Assembly (NCBI RefSeq): GCF_001687605.2
Contig: NZ_CP016539.2
Span: 2,510,501-2,574,500 of the forward strand
Direction: 5' to 3'
Length of the DNA: 64,000 nt
From: Planococcus plakortidis
Lineage (GTDB): Bacteria > Bacillota > Bacilli > Bacillales_A > Planococcaceae
This document shows, in pieces, positions 5,406 through 64,000 of this stretch (position 1 is the first letter of the stretch; the number at the start of each line of letters is the position of its first letter). The notes under the pieces are model-generated. The model was not told the DNA's origin. It saw only the letters and a program-made list of their open reading frames with translations, and did no database searches. A program made the translations under genes and the position numbers.

Positions 5406-5797
5406 CGTTGAACGGGCGTGACCGCTTTTAGTCATATCCAGCTCTCACGCCCAACTCCTCGGGTCATAAGCCATCTTCCCTGTGCGGCAAAAAGCGCCGC
5501 TTCGGGAACTCGTCTTATGCCTGTCGAGCCAGAACGGCCGCTTCAGCTTTTATTCATATCCAGCTCCTCGCCCCCAACTCTTCGGGTCGTAAGCCAACCC
5601 AGCATTGCGGCAAAGAGCGCCGCATTGCTGGTCTGTCTTACGCCTGTCAGAGCTGAACGGGGGCAGTCGCTTTTATTTATATCCAGCTTCAGCGGCCTGT
5701 CTCTCGGGTCATAAGCCATCTTCCCTGTGCGGCAAAAAGCGCCGCTTCGGGAAGTCGTCTTATGCCTGTCGAGCCAGAACGGCCGCTTCAGCTTTTA
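5406..5797. repeat. R1 repeats, three tandem units plus a fragment
   Basis: Three head-to-tail units of about 125-130 bp (about 5423-5548, 5540-5674 and 5668-5797) follow a fragment of a fourth (5406-5430). Each holds GGGTCATAAG or GGGTCGTAAG, a GCGGCAAAnAGCGCCGC hairpin tip, and CTTATGCC or CTTACGCC. The arms change together (CATAAG/CTTATG, CGTAAG/CTTACG). The third unit has matching outer arms AGCGGCC/GGCCGCT and the second GCCCCC/GGGGGC, but the first has unmatched arms. The array abuts the dppE stop codon. Confidence 0.9.
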
Positions 5798-7432
5798 TTG
5801 TTTATCCGCTGTTTTCAGGTCGATGTATCCTACCGGGTGGCGGAGGATGCCTTCGACGCCTTCTTTTTGCAGCTGGACTTGGTTATAGAAATGGATCGGG
5901 AAGATCGGCATTTCGTCCATTAGGATTTTTTCTGCTTCGATGAGCATGTCCCAACGTGCTGCAGAGTCTGTTTCTGCTTTTGCGTCCGCGATGAGCTTAT
6001 CGAATTCTTCGTTGGACCATTGTGTGCGGTTCATGGAAGAATCGGTGATGAAGCTTTCAAGTGCGTTGACCGGGTCCGCATAGTCATGCAGGAATGAGCT
6101 GCGCGACAATTGGTATTTGAATTCCTTTTGCTCTGTCAAGAAGACGCTCGCTTCGACGTTTTGAAGTTCAACGTCTACATCCAAAGCGGTCTTGAACTGG
6201 TCTTGCAATGTTTCTGCGATGTTCTGGTGGGATTCGCTAGTCGAGTAGGAAATCGTCACTGGCGGCAATTCATCCCAGCCTTCTTCTTCCATTCCCTCTT
6301 CAAGCAATTGCTTCGCTTTGTCCGCGTCGAATTTCACCAATTCGCCCGCTTCGTCGCGGAATTCCTGGCCATTCGGGCCTTCAAATCCATAAGAGACAAA
6401 ACCGTAAGCCGGTTTTTCACCGTTTTTCGTCACGTATTGGACGATGTCATCCTGGTTCACCGCATAAGCGAATGCTTGGCGGACTTTTTTGTTCGTGAAT
6501 GGTTCTTCTTCAACATTGTAGCGGTAGAAATACGTGCCTGCCTGGTCCATCATGCTAAGTTCAGGAGAGTCCTGCAATTGCTCGGACATTTCTGCCGGCA
6601 CGCTGGATACATCCAGTTCGCCCGCTTCATACATTTGGTATTCCGTGTTCGGGTCATTGACCATAGCCCAGTGGACTTTATCCAATTTCACGTTTTCAGC
6701 ATCCCAATACTCTTCGTTCTTCTCGAAAACGAATTCCTCGTCGTGGCTCCAAGAAGCCAAGTTGAACGGCCCGTTTCCGACAAAGCTGTCCGCTTCTGTA
6801 TGCCAGTCCGGGTTTTCTGTTGCTGTCGCTTCGTGGATCGGGAAGAAGCTTGGGTTGGTGATGATGTTCAAGAACGCTTCTGTCGGTTCTGTCAATTTCA
6901 CGACGAAGGTCTTGTCGCCTTCTGCAGAAATCGCAATATCTTCTGCAGCGCCTTCTCCATTGTTATACGCTTCCGCGCCTTCAATGAAATAAGCGAGGAA
7001 CGCTGCCGGAGAAGCTGTTTCCGGGTCCAGCATATGTTTCCATGCATAGACGAAATCGCCGGCTGTGACCGGTTCGCCGTTAGACCAGTTAGCATCTTCA
7101 CGGATGTTGAATGTGTACGTCAACCCGTCTTCAGAGATGTCGATCGATTCAGCAGTCGCTTCGACCGGCTGGGATGATTCATCCAGGCGAGTCAAACCTT
7201 CCATCAAGTTATTCAAAGCGCCCCATGATACAGCGTTAAAGCCGATCGATGGGTCGAATGAAGTCGGTTCTTCCCCATTGTTCATATACAATACTTTCTC
7301 CCCGCCGGAATCAGCGGATCCTTCTTCTCCTGAATCGGTGCTTGTGTCTTCTCCCGCGTCTTCGCTTGCTGTACAAGCTGCGAGAACGAACACGAACATC
7401 GCCATCAGAAACAATACAAGCCATTTCTTCAT
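5795..7432 (-). CDS. dppE: dipeptide-binding lipoprotein
   Basis: This is a 545-residue extracellular solute-binding protein of family 5, the receptor of the dipeptide importer. The signal peptide MKKWLVLFLMAMFVFVLAAC ends in a lipobox LAAC, so the mature protein is a lipoprotein anchored outside the membrane. A short acidic linker rich in Asp, Ser and Glu follows, then the typical fold with NMMEGL-like and ANWSNGEPVTAGDFVYAWK blocks. The ATG at 7432 is used because GGGGGA precedes it; an upstream in-frame start lacks a site. The gene is followed at once by R1 repeats and a terminator. Confidence 0.94.
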   Translation of the reverse strand: MKKWLVLFLMAMFVFVLAACTASEDAGEDTSTDSGEEGSADSGGEKVLYMNNGEEPTSFDPSIGFNAVSWGALNNLMEGLTRLDESSQPVEATAESIDISEDGLTYTFNIREDANWSNGEPVTAGDFVYAWKHMLDPETASPAAFLAYFIEGAEAYNNGEGAAEDIAISAEGDKTFVVKLTEPTEAFLNIITNPSFFPIHEATATENPDWHTEADSFVGNGPFNLASWSHDEEFVFEKNEEYWDAENVKLDKVHWAMVNDPNTEYQMYEAGELDVSSVPAEMSEQLQDSPELSMMDQAGTYFYRYNVEEEPFTNKKVRQAFAYAVNQDDIVQYVTKNGEKPAYGFVSYGFEGPNGQEFRDEAGELVKFDADKAKQLLEEGMEEEGWDELPPVTISYSTSESHQNIAETLQDQFKTALDVDVELQNVEASVFLTEQKEFKYQLSRSSFLHDYADPVNALESFITDSSMNRTQWSNEEFDKLIADAKAETDSAARWDMLIEAEKILMDEMPIFPIHFYNQVQLQKEGVEGILRHPVGYIDLKTADKQ

Positions 7433-22875: not shown

Positions 22876-24756
<1,881 letters not shown>

Positions 24757-24794
24757 TTAAGCTCGAGCGGCTTTATCGGCCGCTTCCGCTTTTC

Positions 24795-25670
<876 letters not shown>

Positions 25671-28453: not shown

Positions 28454-28597
28454 GTCTAGTTCTTCCGCTTTTCGCGATGTCTAGACTCCAGTGCCTAGCT
28501 CTTCGGGACATAAGTCAACCCAGCTGTGCGGCAAAGAACGCCGCTTCGCTGGTTCGCCTTACGCCTGTCAGAGCTGAACAGGCACTTTCGCTTTTCG
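28454..28597. repeat. R1 repeat inside the atp operon
   Basis: One full R1 unit with part of a neighbour lies between atpE and atpF. Its outer arms AGTGCCT/AGGCACT and AGCTCT/AGAGCT pair perfectly, the CCAGC/GCTGG and GCGGC/GCCGC arms close the tip, and CATAAG/CTTACG pair with one mismatch. The rest of the gap (28287-28453) shows no gene. Confidence 0.88.
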
Positions 28598-28600
28598 AAA

Positions 28601-30324: not shown

Positions 30325-30353
30325 AGCATACAATAGGGGTAAAATCATGTCAA
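30325..30353 (-). promoter_or_regulatory. atp operon promoter
   Basis: A perfect TTGACA (30353-30348) and TATGCT (30330-30325) are 17 bases apart on the minus strand, giving a leader of about 110 bases before atpZ. Confidence 0.85.
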
Positions 30354-30419
30354 TTACATGTAGTGAAAAACTTCACAAGCTAAAACCCGCCGACATACGA
30401 TTGACAAATTTGTTACAAG

Positions 30420-30803
30420 AAAAGCGAGAGCGGCCGATCTGGCTCGACAGGCGCAAGGCAGATTCCCGAAGCGGCGCCCTTTGCCGCACAGGGAAGTTGA
30501 CTTGCGACCCGAGAGCCAGGCCGCTCGAGCTAGACAATAAGAAAAGCGAGAGCGCCTGTCCAGCTCCGACAGGCATAAGACGGATCAGCAATGCGGCGCC
30601 CTTTGCCGCAATGCTGGAACGGCTTATGACCCGAGGAGCTAGGCGCTCGAGCTAGACACCAAGAAAAGCGGAGGCAGCCGTTTAGACCCGACAAGCACAA
30701 GACGATTTGCTGACGCGGCGCCTTTTGCCGCATAAGCAAAGTGGCTTGTGACCTCGAGGGTCTGGCTGCCGGAGCTAGACACCAAGAAAAGCGGAGGCAG
30801 CCG
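30420..30803. repeat. R1 repeats, three units plus a fragment
   Basis: Units at about 30420-30540, 30541-30658 and 30659-30780 are followed by a truncated unit to 30803. Each unit has different but self-complementary arms: GCGGCC/GGCCGC, GCGCCT/AGGCGC and GGCAGCC/GGCTGCC outside; TGGCTC/GAGCCA, AGCTCC/GGAGCT and AGACCC/GGGTCT next; CGCAAG/CTTGCG, CATAAG/CTTATG and CACAAG/CTTGTG further in. Constant parts are GAAAAGCG, GAGCTAGACA and the GCGGC/GCCGC tip. It fills the wecB-atp gap. Confidence 0.92.
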
Positions 30804-30859
30804 AATGGAAGCTAAGCTATGAACTCGACGTCCTTTGAGCTCTCCCCTCCCTTGCCTCC

Positions 30860-52499: not shown

Positions 52500-52642
52500 C
52501 TCTTTTCTCTAGAGTTTCAACTTCTCTCATTATAACGGACTTGCACCGCCAAATCGACCGAAGTGCCGGATGATTCCATTTGTTGCTGTTGTGATGAATG
52601 AAATGTGTCGAGCACTGGATGTAGGAAATACTAAGTAGAAGA

Positions 52643-52779
52643 GATTGCGCTTCAAGGGGACGCTTTCTGAGGGAGCCGGCTTCAGCCGCTTCCCTCGCTA
52701 GCGCTCAGTCCAGGGTCTTCAGCTCGTCCTGATCCCTCCAGAGTCGCCCCTTTTCGCTCCATCTCTAGTATGAGAGAAG
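52643..52779 (-). repeat. R2 intergenic repeat, copy e
   Basis: On the minus strand it begins CTAGAGATGGAGCGAAAAGG, the R2 boundary also seen at 38620. It shares GCTTCAGCCGCTTCCCTCGC and CAGTCCAGGGTCTTCAGC blocks with the 20352 copy in complement. An R3 element follows about 110 bases away. Confidence 0.85.
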
Positions 52780-61514: not shown

Positions 61515-61790
61515 CAGCCCTAACGGCTGGTTTTGCTTTTCTTGGTGTCTAGCAAATTCCAGCCAGGTTCTCGGGTCATAAGCCGTCCCGGCTGTGTGGC
61601 AAAGAGCGCCACTTCGCCGGTTCGTCTTATGCCTGTCGAACCTGATCGGCTGGTTTTGCTTTTCTTGGTGTCTAGCAAATTCCAGCCAGGTTCTCGGGTC
61701 ATAAGCCGTCCCGGCTGTGTGGCAAAGAGCGCCACTTCGCCGGTTCGTCTTATGCCTATCGAACCTGATCGGCTGGTTTTGCTTTTCTTA
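61515..61790. repeat. R1 repeats, two near-identical units plus a fragment
   Basis: Two units of 123 bp (61544-61666 and 61667-61789) differ at about one base, and a partial unit precedes them. Arms: CCAGCC/GGCTGG, AGGTTC/GAACCT, CATAAG/CTTATG, CCGGC/GCCGG, and a tip GTGGC/GCCAC where other loci have GCGGC/GCCGC. It lies between fadF and the thiolase gene. Translations of the array give a repetitive peptide but no ribosome site. Confidence 0.92.
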
Positions 61791-61902: not shown

Positions 61903-64000
61903 TTATTGAACGATTTCCTCAACTGGCGGTGCGTCTTTTCCGAGAACTGCCATCTCGAGAAGTTCAGAGACATCATAGGTGCCGACTTGCTCTTCGACTT
62001 CTTTCGCTTTCGTTCCATCTGACAGCATCGTCAGGCAGTACGGGCAGCCGGATGAAATCATGGTCGGGCTCACTTCAAGCGCCTGCTCCGTGCGGGCTAC
62101 GTTGACGCGGTGTCCGGCATCTTCTTCCATCCACATCAAGCCGCCGCCTGCACCACAGCACATGCCGTCCTGGCGATTGCGTTTCATTTCAACGAGTTCA
62201 ACGCCTTCGATCGCTTTCAAGATTTCACGCGGTGCATCGTAGACATCGTTGTAACGGCCGAGGTAGCAGGAATCGTGGAAAGTGATTTTCTCGTTCACTG
62301 CATGCTGCGGCTTCAGTTTGCCTTGCTGCACAAGGTCAAAGAGCATTTCCGTGTGGTGATAGACCTCAGCTTCAAAGCCGAAATCCGGGTATTCGTTTTT
62401 GAAGATGTTATAAGCATGCGGGTCGATCGTGACGATCTTGGTGACGCCAGCTTTTTCGAATTCCTTGATATTGGCAGCCGCGAGCTCCTGGAACAGGAAT
62501 TCGTTTCCGAGACGGCGCGGCGTATCGCCGGAGTTCTTTTCTTTGTTGCCGAGAATGGCGAATTTGACGCCTGCTTCATTCATCAAGCGTGCAAAGGAAA
62601 GCGCGATTTTCTGTGATCGGTTGTCGAATGAACCCATCGATCCGACCCAGAACAGGTACTCGAACTCTTCTCCCGCTTTGCTGACTTCTTTTACCGTCGG
62701 AATCGAGATATCCGGGCGAGCGTCTCTCCAGTTTTCTTTTTCCTTGCGGTTAAGGCCCCACGGATTGCCTTGCTTTTCGATGTTGGTCATTGCACGCTGT
62801 GCGTCTTTATCCATTTTCCCTTCCGTCATAACAAGGTAACGGCGAAGGTCGATGATTTTGTCGACGTGCTCGTTCATGACCGGGCATTGGTCTTCACAGT
62901 TGCGGCATGTCGTACAAGCCCAGATTTCCTCTTCCGTGATGACGTCGCCGATCAAGCTCGGGCTGTAGATATCCTCGATGACCGCGCCTTCAGCGCCAGC
63001 TGCCATCGCCAATTGGTTGCCTTGCGTATTGCCGAATGCCATTGCCGGCACCCACGGTTTTTTCTGGGTCATGACAGCTCCCGTATTGGTCAGGTTGTCA
63101 CGGAGTTTCGTGATCAAATCCATTGGTGACAGCATTTTGCCGGTTCCGGTGGCCGGGCACATATTCGTGCAGCGCCCGCATTCCACACAAGCGTAGAAAT
63201 CGATCATCTGGGCTTGCGTGAAATCGGTGATTTTCCCGACGCCGAATGTCGGCATGGCGTCAGGGTCTTCTTCGTTTTCTTCTTCCATATCCTCAAAATT
63301 GATCGGCTTCAGGCGGCCGACATGATCCAAACGGTGGAACCATGTGTTGACCGGCCCGAAGATCAAGTGCGCGTGCTTCGATTGCGGGACGTAGACCAAG
63401 AACGTCAATAGGAACAATAGATGCGCCCACCACATGATATAGAAGATGGCCGCCGCAGCCGTTTCCGGCAGCCAAGCGAATGCCGCTGCGATAACGCTTG
63501 CGACAGGTTCTGTCCAAGCTCCTTCGTGGCCGTGCCAGATCATGCTCATGCCGTTCCCGACAAGGACCGTGACCATCAAGCCGCCAATGAAGATCAAGAC
63601 GAGCCCCGATTTCCAGCCGCGCTTCAAACGGACCAATTTCTCGATATAGCGTCTGTAGAATGCCCATACGACAGCGACCAGGATCGTCAAGGTCACGAAT
63701 TCCTGGAACAAGGTGAATGCCGGATACAATGGGCCGAGCGGTAAATGCGAATCCGGCGACAAGCCTTTGATGATGAAATCGATGGCACTTGCCTGCACGA
63801 GCAGGAAGCCATAGAAGAACATCACGTGTATCGCGCCGCTCTTTTTGTCTTTCAATAATTTCTTCTGTCCAAACACATTGACCATCACTTTGCGGACCCG
63901 TTCATTGAAGTTTTCTTCAAATTCCACTTTTTTGCCGAGCTTGATATAGTCATAGCGCGACTTCAGCAAGTAGATGAACAAGTAAACGGCGTAAGCGGTT
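61903..64000 (-). CDS. fadF: Fe-S oxidoreductase of beta-oxidation, 5' end missing
   Basis: At least 698 residues of a YwjF/FadF-type membrane iron-sulphur protein are visible; the frame is still open at the right edge. An N-terminal region with several membrane helices (IHVMFFYGFLLVQASAIDFI, LVLIFIGGLMVTVLVGNGM, LLFLLTFLVYVP) is followed by two 4Fe-4S motifs (CVECGRCTNMCP, CTTCRNCEDQCP) and two cysteine-rich CCG domains (FHDSCYLGRYN, GMCCGAGGGLMW, SGCPYCLTML). It probably passes electrons from electron-transfer flavoprotein to quinone during fatty acid oxidation. A TTG at 63981 is only internal. Confidence 0.93.
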   Translation of the reverse strand, partial: TAYAVYLFIYLLKSRYDYIKLGKKVEFEENFNERVRKVMVNVFGQKKLLKDKKSGAIHVMFFYGFLLVQASAIDFIIKGLSPDSHLPLGPLYPAFTLFQEFVTLTILVAVVWAFYRRYIEKLVRLKRGWKSGLVLIFIGGLMVTVLVGNGMSMIWHGHEGAWTEPVASVIAAAFAWLPETAAAAIFYIMWWAHLLFLLTFLVYVPQSKHAHLIFGPVNTWFHRLDHVGRLKPINFEDMEEENEEDPDAMPTFGVGKITDFTQAQMIDFYACVECGRCTNMCPATGTGKMLSPMDLITKLRDNLTNTGAVMTQKKPWVPAMAFGNTQGNQLAMAAGAEGAVIEDIYSPSLIGDVITEEEIWACTTCRNCEDQCPVMNEHVDKIIDLRRYLVMTEGKMDKDAQRAMTNIEKQGNPWGLNRKEKENWRDARPDISIPTVKEVSKAGEEFEYLFWVGSMGSFDNRSQKIALSFARLMNEAGVKFAILGNKEKNSGDTPRRLGNEFLFQELAAANIKEFEKAGVTKIVTIDPHAYNIFKNEYPDFGFEAEVYHHTEMLFDLVQQGKLKPQHAVNEKITFHDSCYLGRYNDVYDAPREILKAIEGVELVEMKRNRQDGMCCGAGGGLMWMEEDAGHRVNVARTEQALEVSPTMISSGCPYCLTMLSDGTKAKEVEEQVGTYDVSELLEMAVLGKDAPPVEEIVQ

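Follow-up and report, generated by a model that had tools for sequence, protein, structure and literature searches.

What is conserved in three tandem repeats that adjoin the atp operon upstream region of Planococcus plakortidis, and that differ from each other in nearly every arm of the hairpin that each can form? The window in which they lie is a stretch of 64,000 nt, corresponding to positions 2510501-2574500 of the 3.26-Mb single-contig genome. A sequence-only reading had proposed that a fold, and not a sequence, is under selection. We call the repeat R1.

The R1 unit, its fold and the strand that carries it

The array comprises three complete units on the plus strand (30416..30537, 30538..30659 and 30660..30782), identified by their fold and by a covariance model with scores of 135.8, 130.3 and 124.4 bits, respectively. 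They are 122, 122 and 123 nt long and are arranged head to tail with start-to-start distances of 122 and 122. They are followed on the same strand by a partial fourth unit (30783..30803), which is the first 21 nt of unit 3 (100% over 21 nt), and by a decayed stretch (30804..30845) that resembles Bacillaceae-1 RNA by eye. Rfam gives no match for this stretch in the window; the corresponding family, RF01690, is found at the same place in several relatives. At its 5' end the array adjoins the conserved upstream region of the atp operon (30330..30415, minus strand), which was defined by comparison with relatives and includes a promoter-like TTGACA-17-TATGCT on the minus strand. This region also contains a putative Rex-like motif. 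A conserved GACAAATTTGT stretch in the same region ends beside the array.

Further copies occur in the window, all on the minus strand. A single unit detected with the R1 model lies between atpE and atpF (28477..28598), 5 nt past the atpE stop codon. An OppA-like gene (whose matches are below the curated cut-off) has a three-unit array (5434..5799) beginning at its stop codon, and a two-unit array (61545..61789, with a trailing partial unit at 61516-61544) lies 113 nt past the stop of the gene at 61903-63981. There is also a 43-nt remnant (24754..24796; 24.4 bits, E 0.00035) that retains the start and end of a unit and from which the hairpin is deleted.

Each unit folds as a single long stacked hairpin composed of a foot (AGC/GCT), P1, P2, an internal loop, P3 with one bulged A, P4 and a GCGGC/GCCGC tip. 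All arm pairs listed in the sequence-only reading are present and are formed in the minimum-energy fold of each of the three units. Its outer, second, third and tip stems stand; the four stems that it counted must be supplemented by the P4 helix and the foot, which is weak (3 bp, with 73.3% of cells paired and zero double changes in alignment A1, described below). The minimum-energy folds of units 1 to 3 reach -65.9, -64.2 and -55.7 kcal/mol. On the plus strand the corresponding z values are -7.80, -7.71 and -5.34, with none of 200 shuffles equally stable for any unit, and on the minus strand -5.36, -5.78 and -5.48. Across the family, units are about 122-126 nt long and typically end in GAGCTRGACA with no T run. 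Units in an array abut and leave no gene-sized room between them, whereas integron attC sites have gene cassettes between them. Although the GACA/CGA internal loop prompted us to consider a kink-turn, we make no claim for one.

A blastn search of the genome gives 15 R1 matches, and 20 units were aligned using MAFFT (alignment A1). The consensus structure was drawn from A1, and the covariance model built from these units recovers the same 20 places in the genome. Alignment A6, a MAFFT alignment that takes no account of structure, contains unit 1 of the window together with 55 units from other named genera. Alignments A2 to A5 are model-fitted and biased towards the structure, and the argument rests on A1 and A6. 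In A1, covariation is 0.460 compared with 0.214 ± 0.013 after shuffling, a value that none of 500 shuffles reaches, and 25 of the 36 pairs have changed on both sides. The compensatory changes noticed in the initial reading are thus confirmed. When the structure drawn from A1 is applied to A6, in which 55 of the 56 rows were absent from the drawing, covariation is 0.404 compared with 0.150 ± 0.007 and double changes occur in 27 of 36 pairs (for example, one pair is GC in 28 units, CG in 22, AU in 3 and UA in 3). Some inner A1 pairs fail in A6 (for example, 40 of 55 cells are unpaired at 53-80).

The balance between G-U and A-C mismatches distinguishes the strands: an excess of G-U over A-C implies that a single strand folds. 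In helices P1 to P5 the counts are 34 to 11 in A1 and 113 to 32 in A3, or 39 to 19 and 139 to 55 if the foot is included (units of 110-132 nt). In 385 distinct units of 105-135 nt they are 482 to 182. With the A1 structure moved over unchanged, A6 gives a count of only 126 to 88; restricted to the pairs supported by RNAalifold, it gives 60 to 4, or 16 to 4 when a constant G-U pair found at the same position in 44 of 56 units is removed. Within 22 clusters of close relatives (at least 92% alike) there are 27 changes to G-U, 7 to A-C, 18 double Watson-Crick changes and 15 others. The bias was also counted according to gene context in 240 arrays, with ortholog sets included: it is 189 to 67 for arrays at stop codons, 57 to 28 for sense arrays not at a stop, 165 to 63 for 87 arrays antisense to both neighbours and 46 to 18 for 21 arrays between divergent genes. 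The ratios therefore lie between 2.0 and 2.8 in all four contexts.

Compensatory change keeps the stacked helices of R1, and does so on one strand. Covariation above that of shuffled alignments and G-U above A-C are the behaviour of a structured RNA under selection, more weakly so with the A1 structure unchanged on A6. The proposal that the fold and not the sequence is selected is supported by the transfer of the A1 structure to A6 and by the G-U excess in the sets examined. That the selected molecule is RNA is what we infer.

Placement at stop codons and promoters

Genes were taken from ORF calls, not from annotation, and most loci are the best-scoring ones. A called ORF covers more than 30% of the array in 49 of 157 arrays; 41 of these 49 ORFs are shorter than 150 aa and are likely to be spurious. 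R1 arrays lie largely between called genes. Some are within operons (atpE-atpF and rpmI-rplT), and other 5' neighbours include the 3' ends of tRNA and 23S rRNA genes, and terminators.

In 72 of 137 cases, a co-directional ORF (60 aa or longer) ends within 120 nt of the array. Measured from the first A of AAAAGCG, the end of the stop codon in these 72 arrays lies at -6 to +2 in 53, at +9 in 2 and at -7 to -14 in none. For the placement counts, matches shorter than 60 nt, duplicate flanks and L009 (the same place as in the window) were removed. This left 217 arrays, of which 15 have no neighbour and 202 were classified; a co-directional 5' gene with a spacer of less than 600 nt is present in 111 (longer spacers, of 600 nt or more, were excluded for the expectation). 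The array starts between -12 and +6 nt from the stop of this gene in 82 of the 111, compared with an expected 23.2 and a maximum of 40 in 100,000 simulations under a null allowing the same 19 positions; the -12 to +6 interval was chosen after the spike had been seen. In the mirror case, with the 3' end of the array at the stop of a convergent gene, there is a single example in 115 (expected 17.9; lowest simulation 5). A narrower null gives expectations of 14.2 at stops and 8.9 in the mirror case. Orthologous sites in different species are counted separately in these totals.

The same rule is seen within individual genomes. In G014 (arrays other than the one at mnaA), 17 of 21 arrays are at a stop compared with 4.9 expected, and the mirror count is 0 of 14. 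For Planococcus sp. 107-1 (G577), which has 106 matches, the count covers those listed that lie below 2.6 Mb; here the figures are 15 of 22 compared with 3.9 expected, and 0 of 25. At 69 non-redundant flush sites the stop codon is TAA in 52, TGA in 10 and TAG in 7.

A sense terminator-like hairpin occurs within 250 nt on the 3' side of 75 of 84 at-stop arrays, compared with 39 of 65 among those antisense to both neighbours (counts made after removal of ortholog sets); with these sets included the figures are 89 of 99 and 40 of 87. Such a hairpin also follows 16 of 31 sense arrays that lie away from a stop, as well as 8 of 20 divergent arrays. Terminator-like matches inside the array itself occur in 17 of 99 at-stop arrays. 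An intrinsic terminator was considered as an identity for R1 and rejected: there is no U tract, and arrays lie inside operons with genes downstream.

Using approximate promoter weights, we find 21 promoter-like sites at the 5' edge of 84 arrays with an antisense 5' gene, compared with 5.0 in shuffles; in 10 of the 21 a distance of 0-9 nt separates the -35-like box from the array. At the 3' edge there are 9 in 196 arrays, compared with 10.0 in shuffles. Placement at stop codons is polar. Most arrays with a co-directional 5' gene begin at its stop, on the sense side only, and some other arrays begin against a -35-like box that faces away. The one-sided placement at stop codons was absent from the sequence-only reading and emerged during the follow-up.

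Host range, known families and turnover of sites

Genome searches score the best candidates in each genome, and the number of matches per genome is thus a lower bound. At the genus level, the R1 model, run on 40 relatives, detects matches in the window's own genome and in 23 others of the genus, with 8 to at least 90 matches each; there are none in 16 genomes of other families. In the family, 144 of 200 genomes and 16 of 19 genera have matches. In the class, the R1 model identifies 61 of 398 genomes (33 of 145 genera) and a second model (R2, built from the 56 units of A6) 61 of 398 (32 of 145 genera). Pattern matches (at least 120 stretches, of which 80 are listed) have among their named hosts Rossellomorea, Neobacillus, Cytobacillus, Mesobacillus, Siminovitchia, Sporosarcina, Planococcus, Jeotgalibacillus and Bhargavaea. 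The sequence-only reading was right in placing similar sequences in other Bacillaceae. A blastn search with one R1 unit at 1e-5 gives no match in 72,556 plasmid and 50,697 phage records, and a plasmid or phage origin was rejected on this basis. Five IMG/VR contigs contain an R1 16-mer; among the stretches examined only L378 matches the R1 model (79 bits, at the end of the stretch).

A comparison with Rfam, suggested at the outset as a check, reveals no family that covers R1. With Rfam 15 the best result for the window array has an E value of 0.75 and 20.2 bits compared with a gathering score of 67, no curated family matches R1 units in the window array or in the loci scanned, and none of the R1 units, whether of the window or of the 32 loci scanned, matches RF01690 above its gathering score. 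The only Rfam match above gathering score in the window is an L31-Firmicutes ribosomal protein leader (RF03156, 43217-43247, minus strand, 34.6 bits). Matches to RF01690 fall in inserts inside or behind R1 units. In these scans, the earlier statement that no named family is involved thus holds for the R1 unit itself and fails for what is nested inside some units.

We examined 26 RF01690 loci (27 were fetched, one being too short). By pattern, an R1 start lies just upstream in 20: in 18 of the 21 loci of at least 67 bits, the other three having a variant start by eye, and in two loci of 55 bits; the three weakest matches lie elsewhere. The insertion site is the P1/P2 junction (for example, L038 1292-1358, L039 1293-1359 and L383-L403), and in many cases the remainder of the R1 unit resumes beyond the insert. 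Six composites were folded: L395, L384 and L391 show a closed P1 from which the hairpins of Bacillaceae-1 and the R1 arm branch off, and L403, L394 and L399 do not have this closed-P1 branched form. Since G014 has 52 R1 matches and no RF01690 match, R1 does not require Bacillaceae-1. The Rfam model RF01690 may represent a branch of the larger element alone. A repeat-like GCGGCTGAAGCC...AAAGCGTCC..GAAGCG at 52606-52755 (minus strand) and in L407-L409 resembles the surroundings of the weak Bacillaceae-1 matches that are not in R1, and is possibly a second host scaffold for Bacillaceae-1.

R1 belongs to a kind, the structured intergenic repeat, that is already known. REP sequences can carry CGTC tags and have RAYT partners, and BOX elements have distinct A, B and C modules. 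REP/BIME and BOX resemble R1 in being palindromic, extragenic and often near gene ends or in tandem; they differ in that REP is short and tagged and BOX modular, whereas R1 is one unit of about 122 nt. REP is given as 20-40 bp with a GTAG tag (PMC3733652). Bacillaceae-1 is scored as RNA 'Y' and cis-regulatory 'n' in a table row of Weinberg et al. 2010 (PMC2864571). Like R1 it is structured, multicopy and found in Bacillaceae, and in this genus it is nested in R1; unlike R1 it has 67 positions and two hairpins, and it covers none of the R1 helices. According to PMC3446304, bcr1-bcr18 are families of the B. cereus group that are intergenic, multicopy and present in UTRs and operon spacers, as is R1, and bcr3 is reported with a longer mRNA half-life; the comparison with these B. 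cereus-group repeats is by description only. Bhal-1 of Bacillus halodurans (74 bp, 36 copies) is likewise an intergenic stem-loop family of a Bacillaceae genome according to PMC2267715; compared by description only, identity with part of R1 is neither shown nor excluded. A literature search, in which most subscription journals were outside the coverage, gave no recognised description of the R1 repeat among the papers listed. Placement at stop codons and the hosting of Bacillaceae-1 appear to be new within the Rfam scans and literature searched.

R1 sites differ between relatives both in presence and in unit number. In the atpE-atpF spacer, some close relatives have one unit, two units or a deleted form directly past the atpE stop and others are empty; a further 5 of the 30 loci have no R1 model match. 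The rplT stop runs straight into an array in three sets of genomes: G006/G566, G574 and the G014-G573 group, within which G020 and G214 have a partial unit only. G017 is masked beyond the array start, and the site is empty in G570, G008, G016, G005, G007 and others. A tree of infC-rpmI-rplT places G570 beside G006/G566 and G008 beside G574 (support 1.0), with the third group on its own branch; each branch with an array thus has an empty close relative or outgroup. Read from the tree together with the site comparison, this placement suggests that the array, or its start, would have arrived behind rplT three times in separate branches, or that there were more losses. Behind rplT in G566 (L376), a different insert, about 80 nt long, is nested in an R1 unit close to its P2/P3 internal loop.

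By eye, all mnaA-atpI arrays shown start behind the same conserved atp upstream region and contain few unit types, permuted among relatives; in G573, G020, G214 and G015 a partial unit alone remains. Unit types alternate in L239 (G012) and L242 (G002) at this site as a higher-order dimer repeat. Trailing partial units match the 5' arm of the last unit, which would fit looping-out of units between direct repeats. In multi-unit arrays the best match of a unit lies in another array for 30 of 34 units in G014 and 19 of 32 in G577. As regards the features of a MITE, the same sites are filled or empty and there is no clear target duplication; the rplT site of G006 has ACAAATAA on both sides.

The sequence-only reading had named one result that would count against it, that the copies are transposon ends with a known transposase; for Y1 (PF01797), the transposase family covered here, R1 shows no dependence on it. 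PF01797 is absent from 17 of 46 genus genomes, and the 12 of these 17 that were searched with R1 all have matches (at least 90 in G017). R1 units lie near 1 of 10 PF01797 loci scanned, and a RAYT/IS200 reading was rejected on these two counts. In the single case, L278 (G173), two R1 units have a gene for an IS200-like Y1 transposase some 0.3 kb away.

Function and mode of spread

Both function and mode of spread are matters that we infer. The reading that we prefer, tentatively and with a little less than even confidence, is that R1 has a mobile origin, is modular, is structured on one strand and acts as RNA at mRNA 3' ends. An array at a stop codon would then form the first part of the 3' untranslated tail. 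By analogy with REP/BIME it would probably serve as a 3' barrier, with a long hairpin just past the terminating ribosome that would block 3'-to-5' exonucleases, fix the mRNA end or uncouple the expression of operon neighbours (atpE|atpF and rpmI|rplT). Bacillaceae-1 RNA would be a plug-in branch at the P1/P2 junction of the R1 scaffold. What weighs most against an RNA 3' barrier is the very similar G-U bias (165 to 63) of arrays lying antisense to both flanking genes. Transcription from the flanking genes fails to account for antisense and divergent arrays unless divergent transcription from an abutting promoter is assumed. Such transcription, and equally an action of R1 as single-stranded DNA during spread, would explain the bias in antisense arrays. 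The empty or partial-only sites in many relatives also count against the preferred reading, as does the 126 to 88 count in A6.

A strand-specific selfish DNA element is a serious rival, although we think it somewhat doubtful. R1 would be non-autonomous mobile DNA whose single-strand hairpin is acted on by a transposase or recombinase that places it with its 5' end flush at gene edges; arrays would grow by recombination, and the fold would be kept because only foldable copies spread. This accords with the similar one-strand bias in all four gene contexts, with match numbers that range from 8 to 106 among genomes of the genus (lower bounds), with empty and filled sites among relatives, with the permuted and dimeric arrays seen by eye in close relatives, with the many units in G014 and G577 whose best match is in another array, and with an exact 5' edge and a shortened 3' partial unit (by eye, among the matches listed). 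It is less easily reconciled with the lack of dependence on Y1_Tnp, the failure of one unit to match plasmid or phage records by blastn at 1e-5, the absence of a fixed target sequence or clear target duplication, the bias of recent changes towards G-U in close clusters and the sense orientation at stop codons. A DNA-level boundary element of the BIME type, in which gyrase or a nucleoid protein binds a duplex or cruciform at gene ends, seems distinctly unlikely: R1 does adjoin gene ends and some promoters and forms tandem arrays, but a duplex or cruciform is strand-symmetric, whereas G-U exceeds A-C on one strand and orientation at stops is strict (82 of 111 compared with 1 of 115). The G-U asymmetry is equally not predicted by hairpin-directed template switching, in which one arm is copied onto the other and co-variation arises by mutation without selection. 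This would account for the 18 double Watson-Crick changes within close clusters; it provides neither the G-U excess nor the placement rule, and we give it almost no credence.

The 5' ends of arrays adjoin several kinds of functional edge, as would be expected from a ratchet in which arrays insert anywhere and deletions anchored at their exact 5' end strip non-functional DNA up to a stop codon, -35 box, tRNA or terminator. We consider this very improbable: in G219 compared with G007 (atpE-atpF) and in G006 compared with G570 (rplT) the array merely comes next after the stop and the hairpin or terminator downstream is retained, and arrays arrive at the same site in separate branches. A further reading, which we regard as unlikely but bolder, is that R1 represents a novel type of element that targets the precise point where translation ends. 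It would be a hairpin of one strand, either RNA or single-stranded DNA, that is installed behind stop codons and against -35 boxes, stays as a modular 3' cap and accepts other structured RNAs (Bacillaceae-1) as plug-in branches. A possible route would be the displaced strand of R-loops where translation stops or promoters fire divergently.

Bacterial interspersed repeats are often dismissed as junk, and R1 combines very strong covariation with a polar placement rule. In this genus, the Rfam orphan Bacillaceae-1 RNA gains a structural home. R1 makes it possible to test what recognises the fold and by what means the repeat reaches stop codons, and atpE|atpF and rpmI|rplT provide a ready system for studying 3' structures that set mRNA ends and protein ratios in Firmicutes.
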